Part shown: positions 34,587 through 61,821 of the stretch, one piece after another
How positions within the stretch are numbered: position 1 is the stretch's first letter
How the letters are laid out: each line of letters starts with the position of its first letter
Source of the DNA: Rhizophagus irregularis
Lineage: Eukaryota > Glomeromycota > Glomeromycetes > Glomerales > Glomeraceae
DNA: 64,000 nt
Reading direction: 5' to 3'
Assembly: GCF_026210795.1 (NCBI RefSeq)
Contig: NC_089447.1
Span: forward strand, 2,730,501 to 2,794,500
Notes under the pieces: generated by a model
Databases searched by the model: none
Told to the model about the DNA's origin: nothing
The model's input: only the letters and a program-made list of their open reading frames with translations
Position numbers and translations under genes: made by a program

Positions 34587-37500
34587 ATGACGAGCTTTCC
34601 TGAGGATTATTTCTACCTTAAGGTAGGTTCAACGAGCCTTGTATTGGACGTTGAACGTGCTACCACTTTCTTTGGATTTGGTGGTTCAAGCGTAAAGGAA
34701 GGTTCAAAAACTGTTATCGCTTCGCAAAAAAGTGAAGCAGAAAATGATGCTGCCTATCAACTTTGGAGACACGAAAATGGTTATCTTGTTAATAAACAAA
34801 CCAATTTATATTTAGAAGTTGATAATGGTAAGTATTTTAAAATCGTTATAAAAAAATTTTAATGACGTATCGTGTTTGCAAAAAGCGAAATGTGTATTAT
34901 ATAATCATGTCCAAATATAGTATAATTCTGGATTTTCTTTTAAATATCCAGTAAATTCTCCTATTTGTAATACAGAATCACGTGAATTTAATATTTATTT
35001 TAATTTTATTCTATAGGAAAACCTGGTAACCGTATTGTCCTTCATCATCAAAAACCTGGTTCTAATGGTTCTAATCAACGATGGGCTTTGACCAAGGAAG
35101 GATACATTTCTTTAAAAAGCCATCCTAAATACGTTATCGATGTGAAAGGTGGTAATGCAAAAGAAGGATCACATGTTGTGCTCTCTGATAGCGGCTCAAA
35201 AAGTTTTATAAAGTCTAACTCTGCCAAATGGGAAATTGTCTCTTTAAGCAAGAAACGTCGTAGTATGTATTTAAATTAATTTTTCTACACATGATTAGGT
35301 TATATAATATTAGATCCAGAAAATCATTAATTTCTCTTTTCTTTTTACCTTCTTAAGATGAAGGAGCGATTGGTATTATTAGATTGGAATTAGTAGAAGC
35401 TAAAGGTCTTAAAAGTGTTGATTCATTCTTTGCTGGTGGTAAGTATCTATTTCTTTAAACCGTTCATTAATTCTTGATTATTTGAAAATTATTCACAAAA
35501 AAATTTCAAAATTTAAGGAAAATCTGATCCTTACGTTCGAGTTTTTCACGAGGGTGGTCAAGACATTATTGCTCAGACTAAATTCATTGACAATAATTTG
35601 GATCCCGTTTGGAATGAAGTTCATTACTTGCCAGTAAATAATATTGGGGATAAATTCATCTTGGACGTGATGGATTTTAATGCTTTTACTAAAGACAAAC
35701 CGCTTGGTCATTGTACTTTCGAAGTTACTAAAGAACTTGTTAAAGAAGTTTCACCTAATGTATTTGAAGGAACACCGAATGGCATTGATAAGTGAGTATG
35801 AACGCTAATATTATTAGTTTTTCTTTAATTAATTGAAAGCTAACAGGTTTTTTTTTTTAATTAATATTTAGATGGGCCAATCTTTCAATTCAAGGAAAAC
35901 TTCATTACAAAGCAAAATTTTCCCCTTTAACTTTAAGTTCTTTACCAAAACCAACACCAGATTTCCTCGCTAATCTTAAGGAAAAACCCTTTGATAAATC
36001 AACACTTTATGTCCTTATTACATTGCAAGCACCAAATGGTAGCTTCCCTCCTTCTGACACATTAGCAAACTTGTTCGGTTATTCTAGTACGAATGAACTG
36101 TTTGAATTGTATAAAAATCATGTTCATGATGATAGAGTCGTAAATAATACCAATAAGACAATTTGGACCACTAGTATGGTAAGTCTTGTCACTATGTAGT
36201 TTATGTATCAAAAAAAAAAAAAATTATTATTATTTTTAATCACATTATTATGTTTATTATTTATAGGTATTATGGTTTTTGAGATATTTATTAAAAGAAC
36301 ATAGAAGTGAATGGGGAGGAATTTATGAACGTTCAGAACGATATATCACTAAAGAGTTAGGTGGTGATTTAGAAATTGAAGAAATTGTAATCGCAGGTGG
36401 AAGAAAAGCCGTACGGGAGAGATTTGAAATTAAAGTTGTTGATGGTAAGTAATTCACATTTGCTAATTGTATTAGAGAGTTTTATATGTACATATTAAAA
36501 ATATATTTACCTATTTATTCTAAATTATTAGATAAACAAATTATTACCCGAGAAAATGTCAAAACTCATGATGTCACTCGTATAATTAGACATCAAACTA
36601 GCACTGGTGCATTCCAAGCTAGTGATGAACTTGCGAAATTAATGTCATTTAATAGTTCAGGGCAACTTCGTACAGCACTTACTCGACATATTAACTCTCA
36701 ATCTAAAAGTGCTAAAATCACGAATTATGAAACCCAAGTGTGGGTTACTATACTCGTATTATACTACTTCCGTCTTGTTGGAGTAGATCATAAAACAGAA
36801 TGGGAGGAATCTTATTTAAGGGCTTACAAATGGTTATGGGTACAATTCAAAGGGAAAGAAAAAATTGAACAAGAAGCCTTTAAAATCATTGAATCATTTG
36901 TTAAAGAACGATATAGTGTTAAAGAAGATGTCATGCAATTAGACGAACAATTTATCAAACATATTGCTGATAAGATTGATTTCATTAAAAAGGGTGGAGT
37001 CTCAGTTAGTAGAGGTATTTCTGGTAAGAATTATAATTTTATTTTAACTAAATTATTATTTAATATTTAAAGGTATTAATTATTTAATTATTTCATTTTA
37101 TTTTATCAAATTAGCCAAAAAACTTCATGGTGTTGCGCGAATTCATATTGTCAGTGCCAAAAATCTCATGAAAGCAGACTCATGGTTTGGTGGTGGTGCC
37201 TCAGATCCATATGTAAAAATTATTGGCTTATCCAGCGGCGAAGTTTATGGTGAAACTCGTGTCGTATACAACAACATTAATCCTGAGTGGAATCAAGTTT
37301 TTTATATTCCAATTTATGACCTTAATGATAAAATCAAGATTCAAATTTATGATTATAATGCTTTCTTTAAGCATGTAACTTTGGGATCTTACGTTCTTGA
37401 TCTTAAAGACTTTGTTAAAGTTTTAAGCAATGGAGCCGTTACAGGAAAAAAATTAGATACTACATGCGAACTAAGACCTAATAAAGGAAAACTTCATTTT

Positions 37501-40500
37501 ATTGCCGACTTCCATTCCTATTCTGAACAAGATTATACAACGACTATTATCTCTAAATCTACAATCACCATCCAACATTTGTATATTTTGATAACTTATC
37601 AGCGTCCAGATGGTGGATTTGAATTAAATGACAGATTAGCAAAATTATTAAATTTTGATACCAAGGAGGAATTGGTAAAATCATTTACCGCTTATATAGA
37701 AAGAGAAAATGATGATAGAGTAAAAGCTCTTCATATCGATACTTGGGGTACCGCATTACTTACAGGTAATTTTATCACTACTTCATATTAACGCATATTT
37801 TTGTAGTTGTTTTTTTCCCCCATATTTTAAATTAAATTTATATTTTCTTATCCCTTTTCATATAGCATTCCTTAAAACTCTATTATGGGAACATAGACAA
37901 GAATGGATGACAACTTATACAAAAGCCGAAACTTACTTAAGTGAAATTGTTACGGACATTGAAACCGAGGAACGGCTATATACTTTGGCCAACAGATTTG
38001 TCATCGAACGTTTCAAATTCACTGAATGGGAAAGTGAAGAACAAAAGAAGAGTCTCGGTATTATTGGTATGTTTATAATTTTTTTCACACTTTGTCACTT
38101 TGTTTAAAAAAAAGAAAATTTGATTTTAATTTTAAAATTATTTATTATTTAAAATAATATTTGACAGTTCAATCAAAGAAAATTATCATTACTCGCCGTA
38201 ACGTTACCATACGTCATGTACGTCGTTTCTTGAGCTATCAAAAAGAATCGGGTTGTTTTGAACTTGACAATCACTTGGCTGAAACTCTTGGATTCAGTTC
38301 AGCCGAAGAAGCAAAGAAAAGCTTGGAAACTCATTTCTCATCAAATTCAAAAGTTTCAAAACTTGATGTCAACTTACAAAGTTCGGCTATAATGATTTGG
38401 TATATAAGATACGTATTGGTCGATTTCAGAGGAGAATGGGTTGATAAATATCAAACAACATCAAAATGGATTACTGAGCAGGTAAAAGATAAACAAACCG
38501 AAGAAGAACTCCTTGAAGCCGCAAGAAGCTTTGTCAGAAAGAGATTCGATGTTGATGATGAGGCATTGAAAGAAGATGAAACCTTCGAAACTACTTTGGC
38601 TCTTACCCCAGAAAATATTCCTTCAGAAATAAAAAGGCAAATCGAAGAAGATGAAATAAAGAATGAGAATGATGCTATTGTAACAGATCAAGTCATCGGA
38701 CTTCTTAAAATTAAAATCAAAGGTGCCCGAAATCTTCCAAAGTCAAGTTCATGGTTTACTTCTTCAAAACCAGATCCTTATATTAAAATTCTTGATGCTT
38801 CTGGTCAAGAAATTGTTCGAACTCGTACTATTTCTGAAACGATTGAGCCAAAATGGGAAGAAGTTCATTATGTTTCAATTCATGGTACTGGAGAAAGCAT
38901 TACCTTCGAGATTATGGATGAAAATTTATTTGTAGCTGATAAACCTCTTGGTACTTATATTTTTGAAACCGCCAAAATTGTTAAAAAATCTGAAGATGGT
39001 TTCTACACTACTAGTGAAACTGTAAGAGAATGGTTCCCTCTTATTATTAATAAAAAACCTAGTGGTGAATTAGATATGGAAGTCCAATTCGTTTCTACTC
39101 AATATAGCTGGAAAGAGAGTTTCATTTTCAGCAAAGATACTCTTACTATTGAACATATTTATATTATTCTAAGTTGGAGAAATTCTAGAGGTTACTTCGA
39201 ATTTTCTGATGATGTATCTCATTTCTTTAACTTTAAATCTCAGGAAGAATTAAAGAGTGACTTCTTGAAACTCACCACTGAATCCACTGAATTGCAAAGT
39301 TTAAGTGAATCTGCTCTTAGTACTGCATTAGTAATCACATATTTAAAAATTTTATGTTGGAAATATCGTGTAGAATGGAATAAAGTTTCAGCAAACAGTG
39401 AAGAATGGCTAAGTTCAGAAGTCAATAATATTGAACTTGAAGACAAATTATATGAAATTTGTGAAAAATTCATTATTGAGAAATTCAATGTTAAAGATTT
39501 TGAGGAAGAACAAAAAATTGTTTTGATTTCAAGTAAAGTTTCTATTTCTATTTCTATTTTTTTGTTTTTTTTTTGTTTTTAATTTTTATGCGATATTATA
39601 TTAATATGTTTCGAATAATATTAAAATTTTTATTAGCTCATAAACGTTTCATCCTTACACGTAAAATGGTTACTATTCGTATCGTTCGTCGTATTCTTGC
39701 CTATCAAACTCAAGATGGTAACATTCCTCTTAATAACAAGACTGCTGAACTACTTGGATTCGAAAATGCTGAAGATCTTAAAAAAGAACTTCAAACTTAC
39801 TTTAAGAGTGAAAACGTTAAGAAAGTTGAACATTTATGGGCTAGTGCTTGTATAATTTGGTACCTACGTTATGTAGCATTAGATTATCGTAATGATTGGC
39901 TTGAATCCTTTGAAAAAACTTCCGAATATTTAAGAGTTCAATGCAATGATTCGAAATTAGAACAAGAAGTTTTAGATTGTGCTAAAGAATTTATACACAA
40001 ACGATATCAAGTTGATAATGAATCTGTTGAAGAAGATAATAAATTTGCTGTGACTTTGAGTAGAAAGAAGGAAATGATTGCAAAGGAAAAAGAAGAAGAA
40101 GCGATAAATGAAGGTTTGTATATATATATATATAATATTATTAACAAAATTATTTTGCAAGAATAAGTGTTAATAATTTAATTTTATTTTATTGTTTTTT
40201 AGCCAAGGTTAAAAGAAAACCATCACTTCTTGTAAAACCAGTCGTTACTGTTGAAACAGTCAAGAAATACATTAAGTATCAAAATAAAGAAGGGAAATTT
40301 ACCTTTAACGATGATATTGCCAAACAGTTGACATTTGAGAATAGCGAATCCCTCAAAACTTCTATTAATAAACACTTTGGTTCTAAGCTTACTTCAAAAC
40401 TTGATTTGGATATTTTAACTACAGCTATATCAATTTATTATCTTCGCTTAGAAGGCTCTGAACATCGTTCTGAATGGTCAACTACTTATGAAACCTCATG

Positions 40501-43500
40501 CAAATGGTTAAAACAACAAATTAAAGATAAAGAAGTTGAGAGTGAGTTACTTAAAAGTGCAAGATCATATGTCATTATTACTTATAATGTAGATAATGAA
40601 ACAATTGATAAAGACTCTAAAGAATTTCCAGGTTCGTGAAATATTTTAATTTGTAATTTTCGTGTTTATTTTATTTACTTGAGATTAATTTGTATTTATT
40701 ATTATGCGAAAAGCTATTCCTATTCCTGATGAAAGTGCAGCAGCACCAGATAAAGGAAAATCTGTTGATAAAGGTCAACATGCAGAAACTAAAAGTAGGG
40801 AGATAGGGGTAGAAGCTAAAAAACAAGATGCAGTTATTACTCAAAGCGAAAGCCAACGTAAAGCAATTCTCGACGTTCAATCATCTACTACAGTTGAAAA
40901 GACTCAATCAATCATTTCTTATCAACAAGGAGATGGATGCTATAAATTGAGTGATATAGTTTCCAAGAAACTCGAAACTTCTGAAGAAACTTTAACCGAA
41001 TCAATTCGTACTAGTACTACTAATGAGACCATTCGAAAATTAAAACCTGAAGTTCTTTCAACCGTTTTGACGATCAGTTATTTACAAACTTTTGCTAATC
41101 AACATGAATCCCACTGGAAAGTACAAAACGAAAAAGCAAGAAAATATCTTATTAAGGAAGTAGGTGAAGACAAAGTAGAAGAAATTTTGGCCGCAAGCAA
41201 GAAAATAGTAGTAGAAAGAGCAACAAATAAAGTTATTCGTAAACAACAACGTTCTGCTTTCGCTACAATCCAATCATCGACTACCCTTGAAAAGACCAAA
41301 TCCATTTTATCTTCATTTAAAACGGATCATTTTGAATGGAATCCAACTATTTCGAAGAAACTTGATATTTCTTCTGATAAATTGGTCTCTACTTGTGAGT
41401 CATATGCTAAAACTGAAGAACTTAAACAAACAATTAAACAAAATCCTACAGTTTGGCAAACTGCTATTCAGCTTCATTACCTTGAACTTACAGCTCCTCA
41501 TCATGAAAAACATTGGAGAGGTCAATATGATACCGCAAGAAAATATATTAAAAGTCAGATCAAGAATGAAAAATTAGAAAAAGAATTGTGGGAAGCTTCT
41601 TATAAGTTATGTGCTGAAAAAGCTACACAAAAGGTTATAGTCAAAAAGAGACGTGTAGCTTTATTACATCTTCAATCAAAGACTACAGTCGAAACAACAA
41701 AGATCATATGTTCAAAACAAAAACCCGAAGGTTCCATTGAAATAAGTGAAGAAATTACTAGAAATTCCGGTATCTCATCTGATTCTATCCTTAAAACTGT
41801 AGAAACTCATGCTACCACTGAAAGTTTGAAAAAAGTAACGAATGTGGATGTCTGGAAGACGGCAATTTCATTATCTTACCTTGAAACCTATGGTACCGCT
41901 CACGAATCAACTTGGAAAGTTCATTATGATAAGGCCAGAAAATTTATAAAAGAAAAAGTCAAAGATGAAAAATTAGAAGCAGAAATATTAAAAGCAAGTA
42001 AAGAATTAGTAATTCAAAAGTCTACTACAAATGTTATTCGCAAGCAAGCCAAAAAGGAAAAGAGAATAACTTTATCTTATCTCGATAAGAAGACTTCACC
42101 TTCAACAGTAATTAGTATTGTATCAAAACAAAAACAAGATGGTTCACTTGAATTGGGCACGGACCTTAAGAAGCAACTTGATGTTTCTTCTTCCGAATCT
42201 CTTGTTACATCAATCGAATCAATTGGAGTTAGCGAAAAACTCAAGAAAGTTATCAACTCCAAAGATACAAAATTAGTTGAATCAGCCCTAACAATTAGCT
42301 ATTTACAAAATGCTGCTTCTTCCCAAGAGCGAAACTGGCGTGATAAATATGATAAGGCTATATCATATATTCGTAAAGAAGTAAACGATGAAAAATTGGA
42401 AAAAGAACTCTTAAACGTTTGTAGGAAATATATTGTACAAAAGAGCGTTACAGAAGTAGTCCGAAAGAAACAATTAAAGGAAAAACGAATTGCCTTAACT
42501 GCTGCTCAGTCAAAAACCACTGTAGAAACTACTAAGAAAATTGTTTCAGCTCAAAAATCAGATGGTTCATTCGAATTGAATGAACAAATAAGTAAACAAC
42601 TGGATATCTCTTCACCAGAAACTTTATTAAATACTTGTCATACCGTTACAACAAACGAACGCGTCAAGACAATCAAAGATAGTTCAGTTTGGACAACTGC
42701 AATTACACGTAAGAAAATTCTTATAATATTTTAATATATATATTCAATTTAAATACTCATCTATTTATTCTTTTCATTTATTAAGTTATTTATTTACAAT
42801 ATAACGCTTCATCTCACGAATCAACTTGGAAGGAACAATATGACCGTGCCAGAAAGTATCTCAAAGAAAAAGTTAATGATGATGAGTTGGAAAAGGAGAT
42901 CTTAAGAACAACCAAAACAATAGTTGTAGAAAAAACCAGTAATAAGGTTATAAAAGAACAAAAGAAGGAAGAGAAGCGAGCTGCATTGTCCGCTATTCAG
43001 TCAAAGACTGATGTTAAAACCATAACATCACAACAACAAAATGACGGATCATTCGCGCTTAATGATGACATCAAAAAACAAATTGACATTTCTTCCAATG
43101 AAACTCTTACCAATTCTGTGTTGACTTATACCACAAATGAATCTGTGAAGAAATATGTTAAAGACGTAAAATATAATAAAGCTATCACAACTGCGATTAC
43201 TATTTCTTACTTAAAAGTCTATGCGTCTAATAATGAGTCAACATGGTCTGAGCAATACAAAAAAGCTAGAAAATATCTTAAAGAACAAATCAACGATGAT
43301 GCTCTTGAAGAAGAAATTATAAAAACTTGTTCGAAATTAGTTGTTGATAAATCTACAAAGAAAATCACCGAAAAGAAGAAGAAAGCTGAAAAACGTGTAG
43401 CACTTTCTGAAGTTCGGAAAGTTGGTTCCGTTGAAAAAGCAGAAAAAGTTATCTCTAATCAAAAGAGTGATGGATCGATTGAATTAAGTGATACTACTCG

Positions 43501-46500
43501 CAAAGACCTGAATATCAGCAACGAAACTTTGAAGCTCACTGTCAATACTTTAACTAAAAACGAAAAATTAAAAAATGCACCAGTTGAAGTTTGGAATACT
43601 GCGATAAGCTTAAATTATTTGAAAATTAACTCTGATGAACTCGGAGGAGCGTGGAAAGATAAATATGAAAAAGCAAGAAACTATCTCAAAACTCAACTCG
43701 GAGGTGACGAAAATGCTGAAAAGGAAATCTTGAAAGTGACAAATAAAATTGTAGTAGAAAAGGTCGTACTTAAACAAACCGAAGTTGAAAAACAAAAAGC
43801 TTTAGCAGCCATCCAATCTAAAACCACTGAAAAAACAATCAAGACTGTTGTTTCAACTCAACAACAAGATGGATCTTTTGAATTGAGCGACGTGGTCTGC
43901 AAGGATCTTGACGTCTCTTCAGAAACTCTTATCACGACAATGAAAAATTACGTATCAAGTGAAAAATTGAAGAAGATTAATGATAAAAAATTATTTTATA
44001 CTGTTATCACTCTAGCTTACCTACAAACTACATCGTCTTCTCAAGATAGCCAATGGAAAGATAAGTATGAGAAGGCTAGAAAATATGTTAAAGAAGCAAT
44101 TAAGGATGATGATTTAGAAGAAGAAATTTTGCAATCATCACAAAAATTTGTTACTGAAGCTTCCACAAATGTTGTCCGCAAACAAGCTAAACAAGAAAAG
44201 AAGACAGAGAAAACTGCGGCATTGATCACTCTTAAATCAAAGACCACTCCCGAAACAACCAGAAAGATCGTAGAAAACCAAAAACCCGATGGTTCTATTA
44301 AATTAGACAAAACGATTTCCGAGAAAATTAACATCTCTTCTGATAACATACAATCCTCAGTTCAAACTTATGGTGTTAGCGATAAATTAAAATCAGTCCC
44401 ACAGAAGGTATGGGAAACGGCCTTGTCACTCCGCTACTTAACCATTACCTCTCAATCTCAAGATCAACATAAAGAACAATCTGAAAAAGCCGAGAAGTAC
44501 CTTATTGAGGAACTCAAAGATAAAGAATTAGTGGAAGAGTTATTAACTACGTCAGAAAAAATTATTGTAGAAAAAAGTGTTGAAAAGGATAAGAAAGAAA
44601 CTGTCGCTACTATTCAGAACTCTACCACAACCGAAAAAGTAAAGGAGATAGTATCACTTCAAAAAGAAGATGGATCTTTAGAAGTCACTGACACCGTTTC
44701 TAAGGGGCTTGATACTGAGTCAACTGATACATTAGTATCTTATTTTAAATCTTATTTCAATAATAAAGGAACGAAAGTACCAGAGAACAAAAAAGTAATA
44801 GATACTGCTATAACTTTATCCTTCCTCAGAAAAACATCATCTACCGATAAATCCCCAGAATTAAAAGCAAAAATTGAAAAAGCAGAGACATATTTAAAAA
44901 CTGAGCTAGGAAGTGAAGAAGAAATTAAAGAAATATTAGAAACAACCGATACAATTGTTGTTGAACACGCAACGAAAAAAGCAACTAAAGAGAAAGCAGA
45001 TCAAGTTGTTGTCGAAAAAGTTCAGAAAACTATAACTGAAGAAGAGATCACAGAAGTCATTGAAACTCAAGATAACGAAGGTTCATACGAAAAAATATCC
45101 AACAAGATTACCGAAAAACTGGGAGTAATCACACCTGAAAATATTTCATCCTCCGTCCGTATCACTGATGAACGTGTCAAAAAATTTGATACCAAAGTAT
45201 GGAATACATTTATAACAATTGCTTATTGCAATAAAGTATTAGGAAAACAACAATCAACTCAAAATGAAAAAGCCCGCGCTTGGTTGCATGAACAAATCAA
45301 GGATGAAAAATTAGAAAAAGAAGTTTTAGAATCTTGTGAAAAATATGTTATTAAAACAGTCTCTGAAAAAACAATCAAAGTATCTACTGAAGAAAAAAGA
45401 GAACAAAAGAAAGAAAAGAAAGGTTGGGGATTAGGTGGAATTGGCTCGTATTTTGGTAGTGCAGTTAAATACACAACCGATACCGTACAACATACCGCTG
45501 ATACTGTATCTTCTACACTTTTTAATCTTAAATCAACAACCACTCCTGAAACAACCAAGAAGATCGTAGAAAACCAAAAACCCGATGGGTCTATTAAATT
45601 AGACAAAACCGTATCCGATCAAATTAACATCTCTTCTGATAATATACAATCCTCAATTCAAACTTATGGTGTTAGCGATAAATTAAAATCAGTCCCAAAG
45701 AACGTATGGGAAACAGCCTTGTCACTCCGCTACTTAACTATTACCTCTCAATCTCAAGATCAACATAAAGAACAATCTGAAAAAGCCAAAAAGTACCTTA
45801 TTGAGGAACTCAAAGATGAAAAATTAGTAGAAGAGATATTAACAACGTCGGAAAAGATTATTGTTGATCAAAGTGTCAAAAAAGGGAAGGAAGATGCCGT
45901 TTCCACTATCAAAAAATCTACCACAACCGAAAAAGCAACAGAAATAGTATCATCTCAAAAGGAAGATGGATCCTTAGAACTTACTGACACCGTTTCTAAG
46001 GCGCTTGATGTTGAATCTAATGAATCATTAGTTTCATCTATTAAAACTTATTTCATCGGTAAAGGAACGAAAGCACCGGAGAACAAAAAAGTAATAGATA
46101 CTGCTATAACCTTATCCTTCCTCAGAAATACATCATCCACCGATAGCTCACCAGAATTAAAAGAAAAAGTTGCAAAAGCAGAAAAATATTTGAAGATTGA
46201 GTTAGGAAGTGAAGAAAAAATTAAAGAATTATTAGAAAAAACCGATACAGTTGTTGTTGATCATGCAGCCAAGAAAGTAATCAAAGAAAAAGCTGAACAA
46301 ACGATAGTCCAAGAAATTCAAGAAACTGTAACTGAAGAAGAGAGTATAGAAGTTATTGGAACTCAAAATAAAGAAGGTTCATATGAAAAAATATCCGACA
46401 AAATCACTGAAAAACTTGGAGAAATCACAACCGAAAATATTTCATCCTCCGTCCGTATTACTGATGAACGTGTCAAAAAATTTGATACCAAAGTATGGAA

Positions 46501-49500
46501 CACATTTATAACAATTGCTTACTGCAACAAAGTGTTAGGAAAACACAAATCAAAATGGACAGATCAAAATGATAAAGCCCGCGCTTGGTTGCATGAACAA
46601 ATCAAGGATGAAAAATTAGAAAAAGAAGTTTTAGAATCTTGTGAAAAAATAGTAGCTGAAAAAGCTTCTAATAAAAAGAAAGAATCTTCCTGGCCTTCTT
46701 TGTCTACTTCTTTGACTGGTTGGGGATCTAGCTGGGGTAAATATATTACCGATACAGCTAAATACACAACCGATACCGTACAACATACCGCTGACACTGT
46801 ATCTTCTACACTTGTCAATCTTAAATCAACAACCACTCCTGAAACAACCAAAAAGATCGTAGAAAACCAAAAACCCGATGGTTCTATTAAATTAGACAAA
46901 ACCGTCTCTGACCAAATCAACATCTCTTCTGATAACATACAATCCTCAATTCAAACTTATGGTGTTAGTGACAAATTAAAATCAGTCCCAAAGAACGTAT
47001 GGGAAACAGCCTTGTCACTCCGCTACTTAACCATTACCTCTCAATCTCAAGATCAACATAAAGATCAATCTGACAAAGCCAAAAAGTACCTTATTGAGGA
47101 ACTCAAAGATGAAAAATTAGTAGAAGAGATATTAACAACGTCGGAAAAGATTATTGTTGATCAAAGTGTCAAAAAAGGAAAGGAAGATGCCGTTTCCACT
47201 ATCAAAAAATCTACCACAACCGAAAAAGCAAAAGAAATAGTATCATCTCAAAAAGAAGATGGATCCTTAGAACTCCCTGACACCGTTTCTAAGGCGCTTG
47301 ATGTTGAATCTAATGAATCATTAGTTTCATCTATTAAAACTTATTTCATCGGTAAAGGAACGAAAGCACCGGAGAACAAAAAAGTAATAGATACTGCTAT
47401 AACCTTATCCTTCCTCAGAAATACATCATCCACCGATAGTTCACCAGAATTAAAAGAAAAAGTTGCAAAAGCAGAAAAATATTTGAAGACTGAGTTAGGA
47501 AGTGAAGAAAAAATTAAAGAATTATTAGAAAAAACCGATACAGTTGTTGTCGATCATGCAGCCAAGAAAGTAATCAAAGAAAAAGCTGAACAAACAATTG
47601 TCCAAGAAATTCAAGAAACTGTAACTGAAGAAGAGATCACAAAAGTCATTGAAATTCAAAATAAAGAAGGTTCATATGAAAAAATATCCGACCAGATTAC
47701 CGAAAAACTTGGAGAAATCACAACCGAAAATATTTCATCCTCCGTCCGTATTACTGATGAACGTGTCAAAAAATTTGATACCAAAGTATGGAACACATTT
47801 ATAACAATAGCTTACTGCAACAAAGTGTTAGGAAAACACAAATCAAAATGGACAGATCAAAATGATAAAGCCCGCGCTTGGTTGCATGAACAAATCAAGG
47901 ATGAAAAATTAGAAAAAGAAGTTTTAGAATCTTGTGAAAAAATAGTAGCTGAAAAAGCTTCTAATAAAAAGAAAGAATCTTCCTGGCCTTCTTTGTCTAC
48001 TTCTTTGACTGGTTGGGGATCTAGCTGGGGTAAATATATTACCGATACAGCTAAATACACAACCGATACCGTACAGCATACCGCTGATACTGTATCTTCT
48101 ACACTTTTTAATCTTAAATCAACAACCACTCCTGAAACAACCCAGAAGATCGTAGAAAACCAAAAACCCGATGGTTCTATTAAATTAGACAAAACCGTAT
48201 CCGATCAAATTAACATCTCTTCTGATAACATACAATCCTCAATTCAAACTTATGGTGTTAGCGATAAATTAAAATCAGTCCCAAAGAACGTATGGGAAAC
48301 AGCCTTGTCACTCCGCTACTTAACCATTACCTCTCAATCTCAAGATCAACATAAAGAACAATCTGACAAAGCCAAAAAGTACCTTATTGAGGAACTCAAA
48401 GATGAAAAATTAGTAGAAGAGATATTAACAACGTCGGAAAAGATTATTGTTGATCAAAGTGTCAAAAAAGGAAAGGAAGATGCCGTTTCCACTATCAAAA
48501 GCTCTACCACAACCGAAAAAGCAAAAGAAATAGTATCATCTCAAAAGGAAGATGGATCCTTAGAACTTACTGACACCGTTTCTAAGGCGCTTGATGTTGA
48601 ATCTAATGAATCATTAGTTTCATCTATTAAAACTTATTTCATCGGTAAAGGAACGAAAGCACCGGAGAACAAAAAAGTAATAGATACTGCTATAACCTTA
48701 TCCTTCCTCAGAAATACATCATCCACCGATAGTTCACCAGAATTAAAAGAAAAAGTTGCAAAAGCAGAAAAATATTTGAAGACTGAGTTAGGAAGTGAAG
48801 AAAAAATTAAAGAATTATTAGAAAAAACCGATACAGTTGTTGTTGATCATGCAGCCAAGAAAGTAATCAAAGAAAAAGCTGAACAAACAATTGTCCAAGA
48901 AATTCAAAAAACTGTAACTGAAGAAGAGATCACAAAAGTCATTGAAATTCAAAATAAAGAAGGTTCATATGAAAAAATATCCGACCAGATTACCGAAAAA
49001 CTTGGAGAAATCACAACCGAAAATATTTCATCCTCCGTCCGTATTACTGATGAACGTGTTAAAAAATTTGATACCAAAATATGGAATACATTTATAACAA
49101 TTGCTTATTGCAACAAAGTATTAGGAAAACAACAATCAACTCAAAATGAAAAAGCCCGCGCTTGGTTGCATACTCAAATCAAGGATGAAAAATTAATAAA
49201 AGAAGTTTTAGAATCCTGTGAGAAAATAGTAGTTGAGAAAGCTTCTAATAAAAAGAAAGAATCTTCCTGGCCTTCTTTGTCTACTTCTTTGACTAGTTGG
49301 GGATCTGGCTGGGGTAAATATATTACCGATACAGCTAAATACACAACCGATACCGTACAGCATACCGCTGATACTGTATCTTCTACACTTTTTAATCTTA
49401 AATCAACAACCACTCCTGAAACAACCAAGAAGATCGTAGAAAACCAAAAACCCGATGGTTCTATTAAATTAGACAAAACCGTTTCCGATCAAATCAACAT

Positions 49501-52500
49501 CTCTTCTGATAACATACAATCCTCAATTCAAACTTATGGTGTTAGCGATAAATTAAAATCAGTCCCAAAGAACGTATGGGAAACAGCCTTGTCACTCCGC
49601 TACTTAACCATTACCTCTCAATCTCAAGATCAACATAAAGAACAATCTGAAAAAGCCAAAAAGTACCTTATTGAGGAACTCAAAGATGAAAAATTAGTAG
49701 AAGAGATATTAACAACGTCGGAAAAGATTATTGTTGATCAAAGTGTCAAAAAAGGGAAGGAAGATGCCGTTTCCACTATCAAAAAATCTACTACAACCGA
49801 AAAAGCAACAGAAATAGTATCATCTCAAAAAGAAGATGGATCCTTAGAACTCCCTGACACCGTTTCTAAGGCGCTTGATGTTGAATCTAATGAATCATTA
49901 GTTTCATCTATTAAAACTTATTTCATCGGTAAAGGAACGAAAGCACCGGAGAACAAAAAAGTAATAGATACTGCTATAACCTTATCCTTCCTCAGAAATA
50001 CATCATCCACCGATAGTTCACCAGAATTAAAAGAAAAAGTTGCAAAAGCAGAAAAATATTTAAAGACTGAGTTAGGAAGTGAAGAAAAAATTAAAGAATT
50101 ATTAGAAAAAACCGATACAGTTGTTGTTGATCATGCAGCCAAGAAAGTAATCAAAGAAAAAGCTGAACAAACAATTGTCCAAGAAATTCAAGAAACTGTA
50201 ACTGAAGAAGAGATCACAAAAGTCATTGAAATTCAAAATAAAGAAGGTTCATATGAAAAAATATCCGACCAGATTACCGAAAAACTTGGAGAAATCACAA
50301 CCGAAAATATTTCATCCTCCGTCCGTATTACTGATGAACGTGTCAAAAAATTTGATACCAAAGTATGGAACACATTTATAACAATAGCTTACTGCAACAA
50401 AGTGTTAGGAAAACACAAATCAAAATGGACAGATCAAAATGATAAAGCCCGCGCTTGGTTGCATGAACAAATCAAGGATGAAAAATTAGAAAAAGAAATT
50501 TTAGAATCTTGTGAAAAAATAGTAGCTGAAAAAGCTTCTAATAAAAAGAAAGAATCTTCCTGGCCTTCTTTGTCTACTTCTTTGACTGGTTGGGGATCTA
50601 GCTGGGGTAAATATATTACCGATACAGCTAAATACACAACCGATACCGTACAACATACCGCTGATACTGTATCTTCTACACTTTTTAATCTTAAATCAAC
50701 AACCACTCCTGAAACAACCAAAAAGATCGTAGAAAACCAAAAACCCGATGGTTCTATTAAATTAGACAAAACCGTATCCGATCAAATCAACATCTCTTCT
50801 GATAACATACAATCCTCAATTCAAACTTATGGTGTTAGCGATAAATTAAAATCAGTCCCAAAGAACGTATGGGAAACAGCCTTGTCACTCCGCTACTTAA
50901 CCATTACCTCTCAATCTCAAGATCAACATAAAGATCAATCTGACAAAGCCAAAAAGTACCTTATTGAGGAACTCAAAGATGAAAAATTAGTAGAAGAGAT
51001 ATTAACAACGTCGGAAAAGATTATTGTTGATCAAAGTGTCAAAAAAGGAAAGGAAGATGCCGTTTCCACTATCAAAAGCTCTACCACTACCGAAAAAGCA
51101 AAAGAAATAGTATCTTCTCAAAAGGAAGATGGATCCTTAGAACTCCCTGACACCGTTTCTAAGGCACTTGATGTTGAATCTAATGAATCATTAGTTTCAT
51201 CTATTAAAACTTATTTCATCGGTAAAGGAACGAAAGCACCAGAGAACAAAAAAGTAATAGATACTGCTATAACCTTATCCTTCCTCAGAAATACATCATC
51301 CACCGATAGTTCACCAGAATTAAAAGAAAAAGTTGCAAAAGCAGAAAAATATTTGAAGACTGAGTTAGGAAGTGAAGAAAAAATTAAAGAATTATTAGAA
51401 AAAACCGATACAGTTGTTGTTGATCATGCAGCCAAGAAAGTAATCAAAGAAAAAGCTGAACAAACAATTGTCCAAGAAATTCAAAAAACTGTAACTGAAG
51501 AAGAGATCACAAAAGTCATTGAAATTCAAAATAAAGAAGGTTCATATGAAAAAATATCCGACCAGATTACCGAAAAACTTGGAGAAATCACAACTGAAAA
51601 TATTTCATCAACCGTCCGTATTACTGATGAACGTGTTAAAAAATTTGATACCAAAATATGGAATACATTTATAACAATTGCTTATTGCAACAAAGTATTA
51701 GGAAAACAACAATCAACTCAAAATGAAAAGGCCCGCGCTTGGTTGCATACTCAAATCAAGGATGAAAAATTAATAAAAGAAGTTTTAGAATCTTGTGAGA
51801 AAATAGTAGTTGAGAAAGCTTCTAATAAAAAGAAAGAATCTTCCTGGCCTTCTTTGTCTACTTCTTTGACTAGTTGGGGATCTAGCTGGGGTAAATATAT
51901 TACCGATACAGCTAAATACACAACCGATACCGTACAACATACCGCTGACACTGTATCTTCTACACTTGTCAATCTTAAATCAACAACCACTCCTGAAACA
52001 ACCAAAAAGATCGTAGAAAACCAAAAACCCGATGGTTCTATTAAATTAGACAAAACCGTCTCCGACCAAATCAACATCTCTTCTGATAACATACAATCCT
52101 CAATTCAAACTTATGGTGTTAGTGACAAATTAAAATCAGTCCCAAAGAACGTATGGGAAACAGCCTTGTCACTCCGCTACTTAACCATTACCTCTCAATC
52201 TCAAGATCAACATAAAGATCAATCTGACAAAGCCAAGAAGTACCTTATTGAGGAACTCAAAGATGAAAAATTAGTAGAAGAGATATTAACAACGTCGGAA
52301 AAGATTATTGTTGATCAAAGTGTCAAAAAAGGAAAGGAAGATGCCGTTTCCACTATCAAAAAATCTACCACAACCGAAAAAGCAACAGAAATAGTATCAT
52401 CTCAAAAGGAAGATGGATCCTTAGAACTCCCTGACACCGTTTCTAAGGCCCTTGATGTTGAATCTAATGAATCATTAGTTTCATCTATTAAAACTTATTT

Positions 52501-55500
52501 CATCGGTAAAGGAACGAAAGCACCAGAGAACAAAAAAGTAATAGATACTGCTATAACCTTATCCTTCCTCAGAAATACATCATCCACCGATAGTTCACCA
52601 GAATTAAAAGAAAAAGTTGCAAAAGCAGAAAAATATTTAAAAACTGAGTTAGGAAGTGAAGAAAAAATTAAAGAATTATTAGAAAAAACCGATACAGTTG
52701 TTGTTGATCATGCAGCCAAGAAAGTAATCAAAGAAAAAGCTGAACAAACAATTGTCAAAGAAATTCAAAAAACTGTAACTGAAGAAGAGATCACAAAAGT
52801 CATTGAAATTCAAAATAAAGAAGGTTCATATGAAAAAATATCCGACCAGATTACCGAAAAACTTGGAGAAATCACAACTGAAAATATTTCATCCTCCGTC
52901 CGTATTACTGATGAACGTGTTAAAAAATTTGATACCAAAATATGGAATACATTTATAACAATTGCTTATTGCAACAAAGTATTAGGAAAACAACAATCAA
53001 CTCAAAATGAAAAAGCCCGCGCTTGGTTGCATACTCAAATCAAGGATGAAAAATTAATAAAAGAAGTTTTAGAATCCTGTGAGAAAATAGTAGTTGAGAA
53101 AGCTTCTAATAAAAAGAAAGAATCTTCCTGGCCTTCTTTGTCTACTTCTTTGACTAGTTGGGGATCTGGCTGGGGTAAATATATTACCGATACAGCTAAA
53201 TACACAACCGATACCGTACAACATACCGCTGACACTGTATCTTCTACACTTGTCAATCTTAAATCAACAACCACTCCTGAAACAACCAAAAAGATCGTAG
53301 AAAACCAAAAACCCGATGGTTCTATTAAATTAGACAAAACCGTCTCCGACCAAATCAACATCTCTTCTGATAACATACAATCCTCAATTCAAACTTATGG
53401 TGTTAGTGACAAATTAAAATCAGTCCCAAAGAACGTATGGGAAACAGCCTTGTCACTCCGCTACTTAACCATTACCTCTCAATCTCAAGATCAACATAAA
53501 GATCAATCTGACAAAGCCAAGAAGTACCTTATTGAGGAACTCAAAGATGAAAAATTAGTAGAAGAGATATTAACAACGTCGGAAAAGATTATTGTTGATC
53601 AAAGTGTCAAAAAAGGAAAGGAAGATGCCGTTTCCACTATCAAAAAATCTACCACAACCGAAAAAGCAACAGAAATAGTATCATCTCAAAAAGAAGATGG
53701 ATCCTTAGAACTCCCTGACACCGTTTCTAAGGCGCTTGATGTTGAATCTAATGAATCATTAGTTTCATCTATTAAAACTTATTTCATCGGTAAAGGAACG
53801 AAAGCACCAGAGAACAAAAAAGTAATAGATACAGCTATAACCTTATCCTTCCTCAGAAATACATCATCTACCGATAGTTCACCAGAATTAAAAGAAAAAG
53901 TTGCAAAAGCAGAAAAATATTTGAAGACTGAGTTAGGAAGTGAAGAAAAAATTAAAGAATTATTAGAAAAAACCGATACAGTTGTTGTTGATCATGCAGC
54001 CAAGAAAGTAATCAAAGAAAAAGCTGAACAAACGATAGTCCAAGAAATTCAAGAAACTGTAACTGAAGAAGAGAGTATAGAAGTTATTGGAACTCAAAAT
54101 AAAGAAGGTTCATATGAAAAAATATCCGACAAAATCACTGAAAAACTTGGAGAAATCACAACCGAAAATGTTTCATCCTCCATCCGTATTACTGATGAAC
54201 GTGTCAAAAAATTTGATACCAAAGTATGGAACACATTTATAACAATAGCTTACTGCAACAAAGTGTTAGGAAAACACAAATCAAAATGGACAGATCAAAA
54301 TGATAAAGCCCGCGCTTGGTTGCATGAACAAATCAAGGATGAAAAATTAGAAAAAGAAATTTTAGAATCTTGTGAAAAAATAGTAGCTGAAAAAGCTTCT
54401 AATAAAAAGAAAGAATCTTCCTGGCCTTCTTTGTCTACTTCTTTAACTAGTTGGGGATCTAGCTGGGGTAAATATATTACCGATACAGCTAAATACACAA
54501 CCGATACCGTACAACATACCGCTGACACTGTATCTTCTACACTTGTCAATCTTAAATCAACAACCACTCCTGAAACAACCAAAAAGATCGTAGAAAACCA
54601 AAAACCCGATGGTTCTATTAAATTAGACAAAACCGTATCCGACCAAATCAACATCTCTTCTGATAACATACAATCCTCAATTCAAACTTATGGTGTTAGC
54701 GATAAATTAAAATCAGTCCCAAAGAACGTATGGGAAACAGCCTTGTCACTCCGCTACTTAACCATTACCTCTCAATCTCAAGATCAACATAAAGATCAAT
54801 CTGATAAAGCCAAGAAGTACCTTATTGAGGAACTCAAAGATGAAAAATTAGTAGAAGAGATATTAACAACGTCGGAAAAGATTATTGTTGATCAAAGTGT
54901 CAAAAAAGGAAAGGAAGATGCCGTTTCCACTATCAAAAGCTCTACCACTACCGAAAAAGCAAAAGAAATAGTATCTTCTCAAAAGGAAGATGGATCCTTA
55001 GAACTCCCTGACACCGTTTCTAAGGCGCTTGATGTTGAATCTAATGAATCATTAGTTTCATCTATTAAAACTTATTTCATCGATAAAGGAACGAAAGCAC
55101 CAGAAGACAAAAAATTACTTGATACAGCTATAACCTTATCCTTCCTCAGAAATACATCATCCACCGATAGTTCACCAGAATTAAAAGAAAAAGTTGCAAA
55201 AGCAGAAAAATATTTAAAAACTGAGTTAGGAAGTGAAGAAAAAATTAAAGAATTATTAGAAAAAACCGATACAGTTGTTGTCGATCATGCAGCCAAGAAA
55301 GTAATCAAAGAAAAAGCGGATCAATCGGTTGTCCAAGAAATTCAAGAAACTGTAACTGAAGAAGAGATCACAAAAGTCATTGAAATTCAAAATAAAGAAG
55401 GTTCATATGAAAAAATACCTGACAAAGTTACCGAAAAACTTGGAGAAATCACAACTGAAAATATTTCATCATCCGTACGTATCACTGATGAACGTGTCAA

Positions 55501-58500
55501 AAAATTTGATACCAAAGTATGGAATACATTTATAACAATAGCTTACTGCAACAAAGTGTTAGGAAAACACAAATCAAAATGGACAGATCAAAATGAAAAA
55601 GCCCGCGCTTGGTTGCATGAACAAATCAAGGATGAAAAATTAGAAAAAGAAATTTTAGAATCTTGTGAAAAAATAGTAGTCGAAAAAGTTTCCAATAAGA
55701 AAAAAGAATCATCACCTTGGTTTAATTTGTTACCCACCTGGGGTAGTAGTGATACCACAAAACAAACAACAATAAAGAAAATCGAATCCATTCCTGTAGC
55801 TCCTACCACTAGTACAACAAAATCCCCAGAAAAACCTAAAGAAACTACCACTAGTACAACAAAATCCCCAGAAAAACCTAAAGAAACTACCACTAGTACA
55901 ACAAAATCCCCAGAAAAACCTAAAGAAACTACCACTAGTACAACAAAATCCCCAGAAAAACCTAAAGAAAGCGCGGTTAGTAAATTGGCTGAAAAGTTTT
56001 CCGGTACTCCTAGTACTGGTTCTCCTAGTACTGCAAGTCCTGCAACACATCATCCCAAGACAGATACTAGAGAAGTTCAAAAAGATCAACCCAAAAAAGA
56101 TCAGCCTACTCCTGCCAAACCTGAAACTGAATCAAAAACGAAACCTGGATGGTTTGATAATATTTCTACAAGTGTTGTAAAATTAAGCAAAGATATTGAA
56201 GACGCAATCACCTGGGGCGAGAAAGATGATGATGATCATGATCATGAAAAAGTCGATGCTCTTGATACAGTTAAAACGTCATCTACGACCAAAGAAGTTA
56301 TCCAGTATGTAGTATCAAAACAAAATGACGATGGTTCTATTGAGGCTGGCGAAACCGTTTGTAAACAATTAGATGCACCTTCTAAAGAAACAATAGTGAC
56401 TACTGTTCAACAATATATCACCAATGAAAAACTCAAAAACGCAAAACCTATCTGGATTACTACGGCCGTAAACATTGCATACCTCAAAAATTTAGCGGAT
56501 CAGCATGAAGGTGAATGGAAAGAAAAATATGAGATAGCTCATCAATATCTAACTAAAGAAATTGGAAATCCTAAAGAGGTGGATGAATTAATAGACGCTT
56601 CTAGCAAATACGTTGTAAAACAATCGACTCAAAAAGTTATTAAAGATAAAAAGAAAGCAGCTGTTCTTGCTATACGATCATCAACCCCAAAAGAAACCGT
56701 CAATGATGCGATATCATCTCAGAAAAATGATGGATCTTTTGAAATAAGCAAGACGATCACCAAAGAACTTAATGATACTTCCCCTGAGGATTTAGTCAAG
56801 AAAGCACAATCCTATGTTAAAAGCGATAAAATTCAACCTAAAAATTCCGATTCTATCTTTAAAACAGCACTCATGCTCGGATATCTACGTACAGCCACGA
56901 CAGATACGGATAATCCTTCAAGCGCCGTATCAGAAAAATATAAGAAAGCCAGGGATTACCTTAGCTCTCAAATTGGAGATAAACAACTAGAGGAAGACAT
57001 CATAAAAGCATCAAGCAAAGTAGTAATTGACAAAAGTTCAGAAAAGGTAGCAGAAGCATCTAAGAAAGAAGCTTTAAAAGAAATACAAATTACCCCTGAA
57101 ATCACTAAAACTATTGTTTCAACACAAAAAACTGATGGTTCCTTTGAAGTTAGCAAGGAAATTACCGATAAGCTCAATTCTACCTCTCCTGAATCTCTAG
57201 TGACCTCTGTAATAACTTATACCAAAAATGATAAACTCAAAAATGTTAAACCTTCAGTTTGGCAAACCGTTATATCAATGTAAGTACACACTAACCAACC
57301 TTATATAAACACATTTTTTTCTTCTTCTATTCTAACTTATTTTTTCACATTTTATTTTAGGCAATATTTGAAAAATACAGCTAGTCAACACGAAAATGAT
57401 TGGAAAGACAAGTACAATAAAGCTGAAGAATATGTTCGATCTCAGCTCGGAGATGATAATTTAGTAAAAGAACTTTTGGTAACTTCGAACAAATATGTCA
57501 TTGATCGTGTAACACGTGATATAGTTAAGGAAAAAGAAGAAAGAACTCTTCAAGTCAGAAAAAGTATATTTGATGAAGATACAAAGAACACAACAATTTC
57601 CGTTTTGAAAGGAGAATACAACGTTGATGATGTTCGTTCAATTTGCTCATCTCAGAAAAATGATGGTTCAATTACTCTCCATAAATCAATCAAAAACCAA
57701 TTTAATGTCTCCAGTACTAATCGGTTAATTACGAATGTGAAAAGTTACATTAGTAACCAACATTTAAGATCATATGATGATTCGGTCTTTGAAACTGCGC
57801 TCACGATTTATATTTTAAGATATGTTCTTGTTGAACACAAAGGTGAAACTCAAGCTGCCTATGAACGCGCTAGCTCTTGGTTGATTAAACAACTTAATAA
57901 CAATAAAGAATTAGAAAAGGAATTATTTAGCGCATGTGAACAATATGTGATCGAAGAAGGCTCCAGAAAAATTGAACATGTAACTGTAGAAGAAATAGAA
58001 AAGGTCAAACTTGAAGTTTCCGAAGACACTCGCCAAACTGTGCTTAAATATCTTCAAGAACGTTCCATCCTTGATGACGCTCACGCAATTCGCACATCTC
58101 AAAATGACGATGGCTCTTTCACCTTACATTCATCAATTCTTGAACAATTTAAAATTTCATCAATTGACGAATTTGTTAAAGGAATTACTCGTTATGTTGG
58201 CACCAAAAATCTAAAGAATTGTGATAAATCAATCTGGCAAACTTTATTTATTATTACATATTTCAAATATGTTTTAGTTGATTACGAAAGTGAATGGCGT
58301 AACATTTGTGAAAAAGCAAATAAATGGGTAGCCAGTAAAAAACTTAGTAAAGAAGAGTTGGAAGAATTAGACTCTGCCTGCGACCAGTATCTGATTGAAA
58401 AAGCTGTAGAGGCTTATAATAATCAAACCATAAATGTTCAAGTTACTAAGCTTGATGTAGATGAAACAACAAAAACTACCATATATAATGGACTTAGATC

Positions 58501-59218
58501 TGATGCTAAAGTTGACCATGCTCTTTCTTTATGCAAATCCCAACATAACAATGGATCTTTCACTCTTCACAAAATAATTTCCGAACAACTCAAGATTTCT
58601 TCACCCGAAGAAGCTGTCGAAACTCTTAAATCTTATGTTGGTAGTTTACGTTTGAGACGTCTTGATAAGAGTCTTTGGATATCTGCATTTATTGTCACCT
58701 ATTTCAAAATTGTTTTGGTTGAATACGAATCCGAGTGGCGTAAAGCCTGTGATCGTGCAAGTTCCTGGATCAGCGAACAAGTCCATAATTCTGATTTGGA
58801 AAAAGAATTATATTCAGCCTGTGAACAATATTTGATTCAACAAGGTTGCGAATTTCTCAATAGCAAAAATACTACCATTGTTACAGAAGTTTTAAATAAA
58901 CCTTCTCAATCTGTTATTTATGGATCTGACGGTCGTGCTGTAACACAAAAAGATTCTTATCTTAACTCCGAATTGATTGTAGCAGGAGCAGCAGCCAGAG
59001 CAAAATGTAAAGTCAAACTTGAAAGCACTCAAAATAAGACCTTGGAAGATGTATCAAAAGCTACTGAACTGGCACTCAAATATACCGAAGATGAAGTTAA
59101 TAGATTATTTGACAATAATGTTACTCATGGTAATAAAGATGATGTCTTAAATCGAGCTAAAAGAGCCACTAAATTTTTGATGGACGAATATTACAAACCA
59201 GGTGGAGATTGTTGTTAA
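34587..59218 (+). CDS. Giant beta-trefoil/C2/helical-repeat protein, ~7,762 residues
   Basis: Unrecognised giant gene. Fifteen exons join with GT-AG borders: 34587-34827, 35017-35262, 35358-35438, 35518-35791, 35872-36178, 36267-36444, 36532-37023, 37115-37765, 37866-38066, 38168-39532, 39637-40113, 40203-40631, 40714-42708, 42786-57279, 57361-59218. They total 23,289 nt, an exact multiple of three, with one stop at the end. Residues 1-162 are a ricin-B-type beta-trefoil (QRWAL, AKWEI). C2 domains lie at about 165-275, 612-720 and 1066-1170 (SDPYV/PDPYI, DPVWNE/EPKWEE, D-x-D/D-E-N loops). Between and after them about 48 repeats of ~130 residues carry Q-x-x-D-G-S-F-E-L and W-x-T-A-x-x-x-x-Y-L plus a W-x-x-x-x-x-x-A-x-x-Y/W-L helix, similar in pattern to VWA5-type C-terminal repeats. 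No signal peptide or membrane segment is seen. The C-terminus is GGDCC. A membrane-tethered scaffold is a guess from C2 and Cys-Cys; no function is known. Confidence 0.85.
44231..55747 (+). repeat. Nine-copy tandem coding array, ~1.29 kb unit
   Basis: Copies begin with LKSxTTPETT at about 44231, 45527, 46820, 48113, 49397, 50690, 51974, 53258 and 54551. Spacings are 1296, 1293, 1293, 1284, 1293, 1284, 1284 and 1293 bp, all multiples of three. Each unit encodes three successive helical repeats (KPDGSIKL, KEDGSLEL/P, NKEGSYEK) and a linker with WPSLSTSLT and TTDTVQHTADTVSSTL. Copy 1 is clearly diverged and copy 9 loses the standard linker; copies 2-8 are nearly identical at DNA level, including silent sites. 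The 9-bp length difference corresponds to two alleles of one segment: long KHKSKWTDQN and short KQQSTQN. Confidence 0.95.
55804..55970 (+). repeat. In-frame 42-bp minisatellite, four copies
   Basis: Four essentially identical 42-bp copies encode TTTSTTKSPEKPKE repeats, a Pro/Thr/Lys-rich, probably disordered and phosphorylatable (S/T-P) hinge that separates the main tandem array from the final six helical repeats of the giant protein. Confidence 0.95.
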
Positions 59219-61821
59219 AGATTCATAATATTATATTAGTATTATTTATTAGTATATATTAAATATATAGTTTAAAAATATAGTCTTTTTATCTTGTAGC
59301 TATTTTATTTTATTTTATTTTTATCAAAAGAATTTGTTATATTTATTATTTATTAAATAAAATTTATTGATTTTGACCTTATAAATTTTTATACTTTTTC
59401 GAAGTGAAAAAAAAAAATACGCGTAATAAATGAATTTTGACGTTAAAATAATGACTTTTAAATTTTGACTGATATTTTTTTTTTTTGAAAATATATTATT
59501 GAAAGTCGAAATTTTATTAATCGATTTGATCTTACCAATCAAATTCATTTCTTTTTGATACAGCTGCGGATTAAGAACATTATGTGATTGTATTCCACAA
59601 ATTTTATTAAAATTATCCGCCAATCTATCAGAATATACTATAAAAGCTCCTTTAAACAAGGATTAAAAAATATACACAAATTTTAATACACTATTGGTAT
59701 AAAATTTCGATCAAATAAAATCCAACCAAATATGATCGCTCAAATTGCAGTTACAAATTGCTCGAAATTTTAACGGGAGAACTTCTTGGCTGCATCCTCT
59801 AATAATTCTCACCGTTATAAATTGATCAAAATGTGAATTAATTATGTTTAATTCAAAGGAATAATAACAAGGAAAATTGAATTCCTAGTATCCAAGGGGA
59901 GTACAAAAGTATAAAAGCACAAAATAATAAGATTTCACCAATTATCATAACACCAACAGCCATGAATAAATGACGGAGATACTTTCGTAAAATTAAGCAG
60001 CTCTCAAAATATCCTAAGTAAAGAATCAATTATGTACTACAATTTTTAAATTGAAAGAAAAAAAAAAATGATGATCGTGATTTATTTCGATAAATTACTA
60101 TTAGATCACAAAAATCGGGCGCATTGTAACAGTGATTAGAAATTTGTATTTTCTTTTATATTATTGTAACTCTTGTCAAACATCAAAAGAAAAGGCGAAA
60201 TATTTTTCTAAAAATATTTAATAAAATTATAAATAACTATATTTATATATATATTGCCTTTAATTTCTTTTTACTAAAACACAACATTTAACAGAATTCT
60301 TTACAAGAAATTCCCCTTTCTTTCCTCCCCCTATTTTTCAACGATCATATTCGTCATTTTAGCTGATAATTGGTTTATTTCAAATAAAGTTCATTTTTAT
60401 GCTTGTTTCATTTGAGGGGGGGTTTTTTTTTTGACGTATATAAAGAATAAATAATCGGATTGTAAATAAATAATTATAGTGTATTCCAAATATCACAAAC
60501 AATGAAGCAAGCAGTCATAAAGCATTAAAAAGAATCACAACAGATATAACTAAATTTTATACGACGGGGAGAAACTCCATTGATATATATCGAAAATTTT
60601 TTTGAAGATCCAATCCAAAAAAGGAAAAAAACTCGAAACGAATAATTTTTGTTTCAATGTTTAAAATGTTTAAGTTACATGACCACAATATTAAAAAAAA
60701 AAAAAGTTATTATACAATAATATTATATCAATATTATATCATATTATTTTTTTATTCTTTTTGTTTTTTAGATATTAATAATCAATAAAAATAAAAAAAT
60801 GGGGAAATCAAATAAATAAATAAAATAAAATAACAAATATTCGGAGGTTTACAAAAGTTAAAAATTTTTTATTTTTATAACTTGAAATGACGATGTTCTT
60901 TGTGTATCTAGCGAACGCTTTGCGTTAATCAAATGAAAGAAAAGTAATAAATTAATCCGCTAATTAAATTTAAATTTATATGAGGAAAAATTTTCACAAA
61001 TTTTTCACAAAATGATGATAAAATTCTTTCTGTAATACTTATTAAGTATTAACCGACTTGTAATTAGAATTATTAAGTGGTCAAACGCATTAATTGTTTA
61101 CAACTATCTATTTATTATTTAATAGTTATTACGGACAATTTTTTTTTTTTTGTTAATTTCCTTTAAAGAGGAACTGAGGAAGGATTATTTAAAAAATAAA
61201 TCCCCATATTCGTTACAAAAAAAAAACATTAAAAAAAAACTTTTCGAAAAAAAAGAATTGTGTATTTTTCCGAAATGGTTAGAAAATTATTATTGATTGT
61301 AGTTTAATAATACATATCATATTGTTGTGTCATTCCATTGCATTACCAAGTTACCCCGTAAACTTTTTTTTTTTTGATATTCAAATAATAATAGTAATAA
61401 TAATTTGAATATCATAAATCATTAACCATTGTTTATGCATAACTTTATTAAAAACTATTTAAAACCAAGCGTTCACAAAATTTAAATTTAATTTTTTACT
61501 ACCCACAAGCTTTTTTTTTTTTAAATTTAAAAAAATAAAAATTAAAAAAAATCAAAAAAAAAATCAAAAAAAAAATAGACTTTTTCTTAACTTTCTAAAG
61601 TTTAGTCTAAAAAAAAAAAAAAAAAATTTTCGAATTTATAATAAATTGATTTTTATTAAAAAAAAAAAATATTATTATATAAATAATACATTTTTCTTTT
61701 TCGAGTCGAATTTTTATATTAGTAAATTCAGTAGAATCCTTTATTTATCTTATTTATATTTTATGAATTAATGAACAATTAATTAATTTATCAACCTTAA
61801 AGATATAATAATAATAATAGA
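59219..61821. other. Spacer between the giant gene and the receptor gene
   Basis: About 2.6 kb of AT-rich DNA with many A and T runs, especially 61500-61680. It includes the 3' region of the giant gene and a long upstream region of the receptor gene. A 111-codon minus-strand ORF at 59324-59659 has low-complexity Lys/Asn/Ile composition after its first 45 codons and no recognised domain. No RNA gene seen. Confidence 0.5.

Follow-up and report, generated by a model that had tools for sequence, protein, structure and literature searches.

The 64,000-nt stretch of the Rhizophagus irregularis genome analysed here (the window) raises the question of whether the exons found between 34587 and 59218 on the + strand encode a single giant protein, of what such a protein is built and what it might do in the cell. 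A preliminary description had assembled fifteen GT-AG-bounded exons into one frame of 23,289 nt encoding about 7,762 residues, and the rebuilt gene model agreed with it. Once the 15 exons are joined, the open reading frame is 23,289 nt long, i.e. 7,762 aa and a stop codon, with a computed mass of 879 kDa and a pI of 6.6; to our knowledge, the product would be among the largest fungal proteins. The 14 introns (77-189 bp) are all of the GT-AG type, the donor of intron 10 being GTAAAG at 39533, and retention of any one of them (14/14) introduces one or more in-frame stops. Exon 14 by itself contributes 4,830 codons.

Several adjacent genes, or a mis-assembled array, might have been joined in error, as the model was derived from DNA rather than RNA and introns 10, 11 and 12 lie, by their coordinates, between domains and never inside one. 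Against this, introns interrupt five of the repeats described below (R1, R2, R3, R12 and R45), so that the exons concerned must be joined. Moreover, a second prediction from R. irregularis, P0018 ("unnamed protein product", 7,754 aa, 48 repeats, cluster of 15 sequences), which comes from another assembly, was identical to the window protein in 7,600 of 7,771 alignment columns. The five gaps of this alignment (3, 3, 3, 3 and 14 residues, at window residues 2868, 4431, 5290, 5718 and 6652) all lie away from the exon junctions. In Funneliformis, P0019 (5,302 aa, partial) carries the matches to R1-R9 in order in one protein. A joining error is thus very improbable, and a single 7,762-aa protein encoded by one gene was confirmed at the level of the genomic sequence.

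The architecture of the protein was established with Pfam for the N-terminal domains and with a dedicated profile for the repeats, for which 17 stretches of the giant served as seed before iteration on the giant itself. All features are encoded on the + strand. The protein begins with a ricin-B-like beta-trefoil (34587..35246, aa 1-157; ricin-type match of 34.1 bits for a Pfam cut-off of 25.6), the nearest solved chain being 6lci mdaA-1 (E 3.8e-10). Three modules follow, each made of a C2 domain and two repeats: C2 domain a (35363..35929, aa ~165-300) with R1-R2 (35957..36923, aa 310-573), C2 domain b (37120..37530, aa ~609-745) with R3-R4 (37537..38559) and C2 domain c (38680..39111, aa ~1062-1205) with the first two repeats of the R5-R7 segment (39115..40597). 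The array then continues through R8-R15 (40860..44176) to nine super-units of three repeats each, R16-R42, with eight aromatic, amphipathic-looking linkers (44216..55699). A Pro/Thr-rich spacer (55700..56248), repeats R43-R48 (56249..58861) and a conserved tail ending in Cys-Cys (58862..59215, aa 7645-7762) complete the protein. All three C2 domains scored above the Pfam cut-off, and the solved chains closest to C2 domain a are those of myoferlin and synaptotagmin-1. The trefoil and the three C2 domains of the preliminary description therefore stand, but the C2 domains do not form a single block, the order being trefoil, (C2-R-R)x3 and then 42 further repeats. About 48 repeats with a D-G-S-type core had been counted previously; the profile returned exactly 48, each with a score of 99.9-148.2 bits, values that are not independent because the profile was built from the giant itself. 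One extra stretch, at -2.5 bits, was spurious. The repeats are diverse: clustering at 80% identity leaves 26 of the 48 as non-redundant and the median pair identity is 25%, so that the repeats may differ in their partners or have none. Within the Pro/Thr-rich spacer, a 42-bp unit (14 aa) is present in four perfect copies at 55803-55970, and the 14-residue gap of P0018 falls in the same stretch.

The trefoil and C2 domains suggest docking on a membrane or glycolipid. Judged by eye from the motifs, the Ca2+ ligands of the C2 loops look incomplete, with Asn for the second Asp of loop 3 in all three domains and, in C2 domain c, a Ser in loop 1; the Ca2+ dependence of the head is therefore doubtful. 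Structure prediction of the head modelled the domains separately and did not fix their relative placement (pTM 0.39). This low value fits a string of beads but may also reflect the shallow alignment of 11 sequences. As the giant has no transmembrane-like stretch (best 19-residue mean hydropathy of 1.47), the protein is probably cytosolic.

To what do the repeats correspond? The Pfam search returned no family covering them, and their best sequence match among solved structures had an E value of 0.12. AF2 modelled the single repeat R11 as a helical domain of eight helices (pLDDT 89.4). The likeness to the C-terminus of VWA5-type proteins proposed in the preliminary description was examined against the VIT genes of the same genome. 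VIT-domain matches are present at about ten places (contigs C2, C7, C13, C14, C15 and C21), several of them near-duplicates, and the stretches downstream of nine VIT loci were used for the comparison. At L059, the one locus scanned for vWFA, the VIT domain is followed by a vWFA domain (VWA_3, 80.5 bits) and then by the C-terminal domain (CTD). The repeat profile matched the downstream end of six of the nine loci with 25.9-36.8 bits; the remaining three gave 7.7 bits, 2.8 bits or nothing. For comparison, the top score was 11.5 bits among 4,950 shuffled sequences and 8.1 bits among 616 real ORFs from 11 other stretches, once the ORFs of L046 (73.7, 34.2 and 25.0 bits), a locus already found to carry true repeats, had been set aside. 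Conversely, a profile built from the six CTDs found the other three VIT loci at 70.3, 59.5 and 18.0 bits; counting the six from which it was built, this profile matches all nine loci. On the giant, the CTD profile recognised R7, R1 and R6 (19.2, 11.4 and 11.1 bits), the other 45 of the 48 stretches reported scoring at most 7.0 bits, whereas the best of 50 shuffled proteins reached 2.3 bits. Comparison of the two profiles with each other gave a probability of 94.6.

These reciprocal tests with their controls give good support to the assignment of the repeat to the VWA5A-type CTD, as represented by the VIT genes of this genome rather than by human or Dictyostelium sequences, and this part of the earlier interpretation was upheld; taken as a whole, that interpretation is partly supported. 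Giant repeats and CTD both open with a Q-x-x-[DN]-G-x-F motif, with Y-L and Y-E-K-A helices further on, and both are predicted helical domains, R11 by AF2 and the CTD according to the available sections of the Vwa1 study (PMC10539598). The same sections describe the CTD of human VWA5A as 101 residues long and homologous to that of Vwa1, and present an AlphaFold prediction in which the CTD forms a bundle of helices that docks on the vWFA domain within the same chain. They also report that overexpressed Vwa1 domains disturb Dictyostelium development in a Vwa1-dependent manner, with disturbed dimerisation or a release from autoinhibition offered as possible explanations; tandem copies of the CTD are not mentioned in them. 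VWA5A and Dictyostelium Vwa1 carry one CTD after VIT and vWFA domains, whereas the giant carries 48 copies together with C2 domains and a trefoil, and a Pfam scan of aa 1-1100, ~1069-1344, exons 11, 12 and 13, 14, 15 of the giant detected neither VIT nor vWFA. We regard the identity of the giant, that is its gene, its architecture and the homology of its repeats, as highly probable.

The nine super-units were compared with each other at the codon level. The dN/dS ratio was 0.10-0.40 in all 36 pairs; dS was 0.046-0.163 among super-units 2-9, the first super-unit being more distant from the others (0.27-0.35). These values indicate that the super-unit array is under constraint and point to its having been copied or homogenised fairly recently. 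In the linkers, the hydrophobic moment of a 31-residue piece picked by eye was reached in none of 2,000 shuffles. For two shorter pieces, chosen in the same way, the proportions of shuffles reaching the observed moment were 0.15% and 0.05%.

Protein searches identified relatives in eight named Glomeromycotina genera besides Rhizophagus: Funneliformis, Diversispora, Acaulospora, Gigaspora, Cetraspora, Dentiscutata, Racocetra and Scutellospora. A first search returned 17 proteins, 12 of them with the repeat and the other 5 all listing a Pfam C2 domain; two further searches added 4 and 15 proteins, all with repeats. Many of these entries are partial. Outside Glomeromycotina, no repeat was seen in these searches, which reach only relatives sharing five-residue words. 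The first nine repeats of Funneliformis best match R1-R9, in order, and repeats 1-7 of both Dentiscutata and Diversispora best match R1-R7; the order of repeats 1-7 is thus kept in the three relatives compared. For Funneliformis R1-R6, the second-best match in the window is the repeat of the same parity in another module (R1 with R3, R2 with R4, etc.), which suggests that the C2-R-R module arose by triplication. In Racocetra and Scutellospora, R43 or R45 is the best match for 22 of 23 and 14 of 23 repeats, respectively. These comparisons suggest an old head and a separate growth of the arrays. In Funneliformis, Racocetra and Scutellospora, too, groups of repeats are set apart by linkers, of other sequence, that begin with an aromatic, helical-looking piece. 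The tail is common to the giant, Diversispora and Cetraspora. Cysteines cluster close to the C-terminus of Diversispora P0026; elsewhere P0024 ends in Cys-Trp, no cysteine is present at the end of P0028 or P0029 and Cetraspora P0034 has another end. A borderline match to the CipC-like DUF3759 was obtained in the P0026 tail (aa 634-708; 25.8 bits for a cut-off of 25), and Pfam gave none in the window tail, P0023 or P0034. A separate observation concerns Scutellospora calospora P0021 (4,124 aa), in which R43-like and R48-like repeats precede R4-R7-like ones; this prediction may be a fusion in which the end of one copy runs into the beginning of a second.

Scattered partial or degraded copies of the giant gene occur elsewhere in the genome, twice each on contigs C31 and C5 and also on C28 and C17; among them are C31:956160-958733, L041, L042, L043 and L046. 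The copy at C31:957219-958250 contains eight internal stops and that on C17 has short frames. At L039 (C31:1018500-1028400), between positions 2921 and 7230 of the locus, split kinase ORFs directly precede a 1,076-aa repeat ORF, a layout that resembles the kinase-repeat proteins of Gigaspora and Diversispora. Within the window, the neighbours are ordinary, with matches to peptidyl-tRNA hydrolase (1138-1719, - strand), a SigF NTF2-like domain (16994-17572, + strand) and FAD_binding_2 (25412-26536, - strand); a 7tm_1 match (61801-62502, + strand) is sub-threshold at 20.2 bits for a cut-off of 30.5.

What might such a protein do? In VWA5A-type proteins, the single CTD has a vWFA domain as its predicted docking site, and a docking scaffold therefore appears the most likely role for the giant. 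The N-terminal trefoil/C2 head would dock on a membrane lipid or glycolipid, and the body would form a bead-like string of 48 helical domains of the VWA5A-CTD type. Should the repeats have kept the docking role of the CTD, itself an AlphaFold prediction, the 48 copies would offer vWFA-domain proteins a multivalent platform; the 879-kDa molecule would gather partner proteins at the membrane at many sites, VIT-vWFA proteins being the first candidates. The incomplete-looking Ca2+ ligands, the three VIT loci that the repeat profile did not clearly hit, the low scores of the CTD profile on most repeats and the divergence among the repeats speak against it. We put forward this putative mechanism tentatively; for the explanation as a whole, in which identity and mechanism are blended, our confidence is evenly balanced.

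Two other roles were weighed. The giant could be a passive tether between two membranes or between a membrane and a droplet, the C2 head acting on one side, the linkers and the cysteine tail on the other and the repeats serving as spacers. The recurrence of aromatic, helical-looking linkers in Rhizophagus and three other genera, their hydrophobic moments and the Cys-Cys end of the window protein, with the cysteine cluster of P0026, would all agree with a tether. However, the pieces chosen for the moment test were picked by eye, the ends vary between relatives as described above, and constraint on the super-units is not obviously needed by pure spacers; we therefore consider a tether unlikely. 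Less probable still is a signalling or recognition sensor, whose repeats would bind a ligand and control the kinase in fused relatives, the array evolving by duplication and homogenisation. Kinase and repeats do occur in one protein in Diversispora P0004 and in Gigaspora P0012 and P0031, the split kinase ORFs of L039 lie just before a repeat ORF, and the low dS among super-units 2-9 accords with such turnover. Yet Pfam gave no kinase match in the scanned parts of the giant, dN/dS stayed below 0.41 in 36 of 36 super-unit pairs, with no diversifying selection at this scale, and both strains compared have 48 repeats.

Known systems resemble the giant in part. Multi-C2 membrane proteins such as ferlins, synaptotagmins and tricalbins also carry several C2 domains; unlike them, the giant has pairs of CTD-type repeats between its C2 domains and no transmembrane-like stretch. 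A possible structural relation to alpha/alpha-toroid proteins, represented by the complement thioester domain and by class II terpene cyclases, was also considered. Lah/leashin are giant fungal tethers; like them, the giant would be a very large fungal scaffold. The domains of the giant are known. The titles and abstract openings returned by a thin literature search did not describe the protein, and within that limited search neither the combination of domains nor their 48-fold amplification nor the family was described.

Arbuscular-mycorrhizal fungi live in symbiosis with plants, and their cell biology is difficult to approach; the VWA5A-type CTD also occurs in a human tumour-suppressor family. 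The constrained super-units belong to a family with members in nine genera of these fungi, Rhizophagus included. The giant offers 48 natural variants of the CTD, a domain without a model in the copy of Pfam searched, and the question of its binding partner is therefore directly testable. In a further extension of the scaffold proposal, which we regard as speculative and rather doubtful, arbuscular-mycorrhizal fungi would have reused a tail domain thought to be autoinhibitory, the 48 tail-type domains docking vWFA domains in trans, and the kinase-fused repeat proteins would form the signalling arm of the same docking system. If this were true, one membrane-held molecule could bind dozens of VIT-vWFA proteins simultaneously and thereby open or cluster them.
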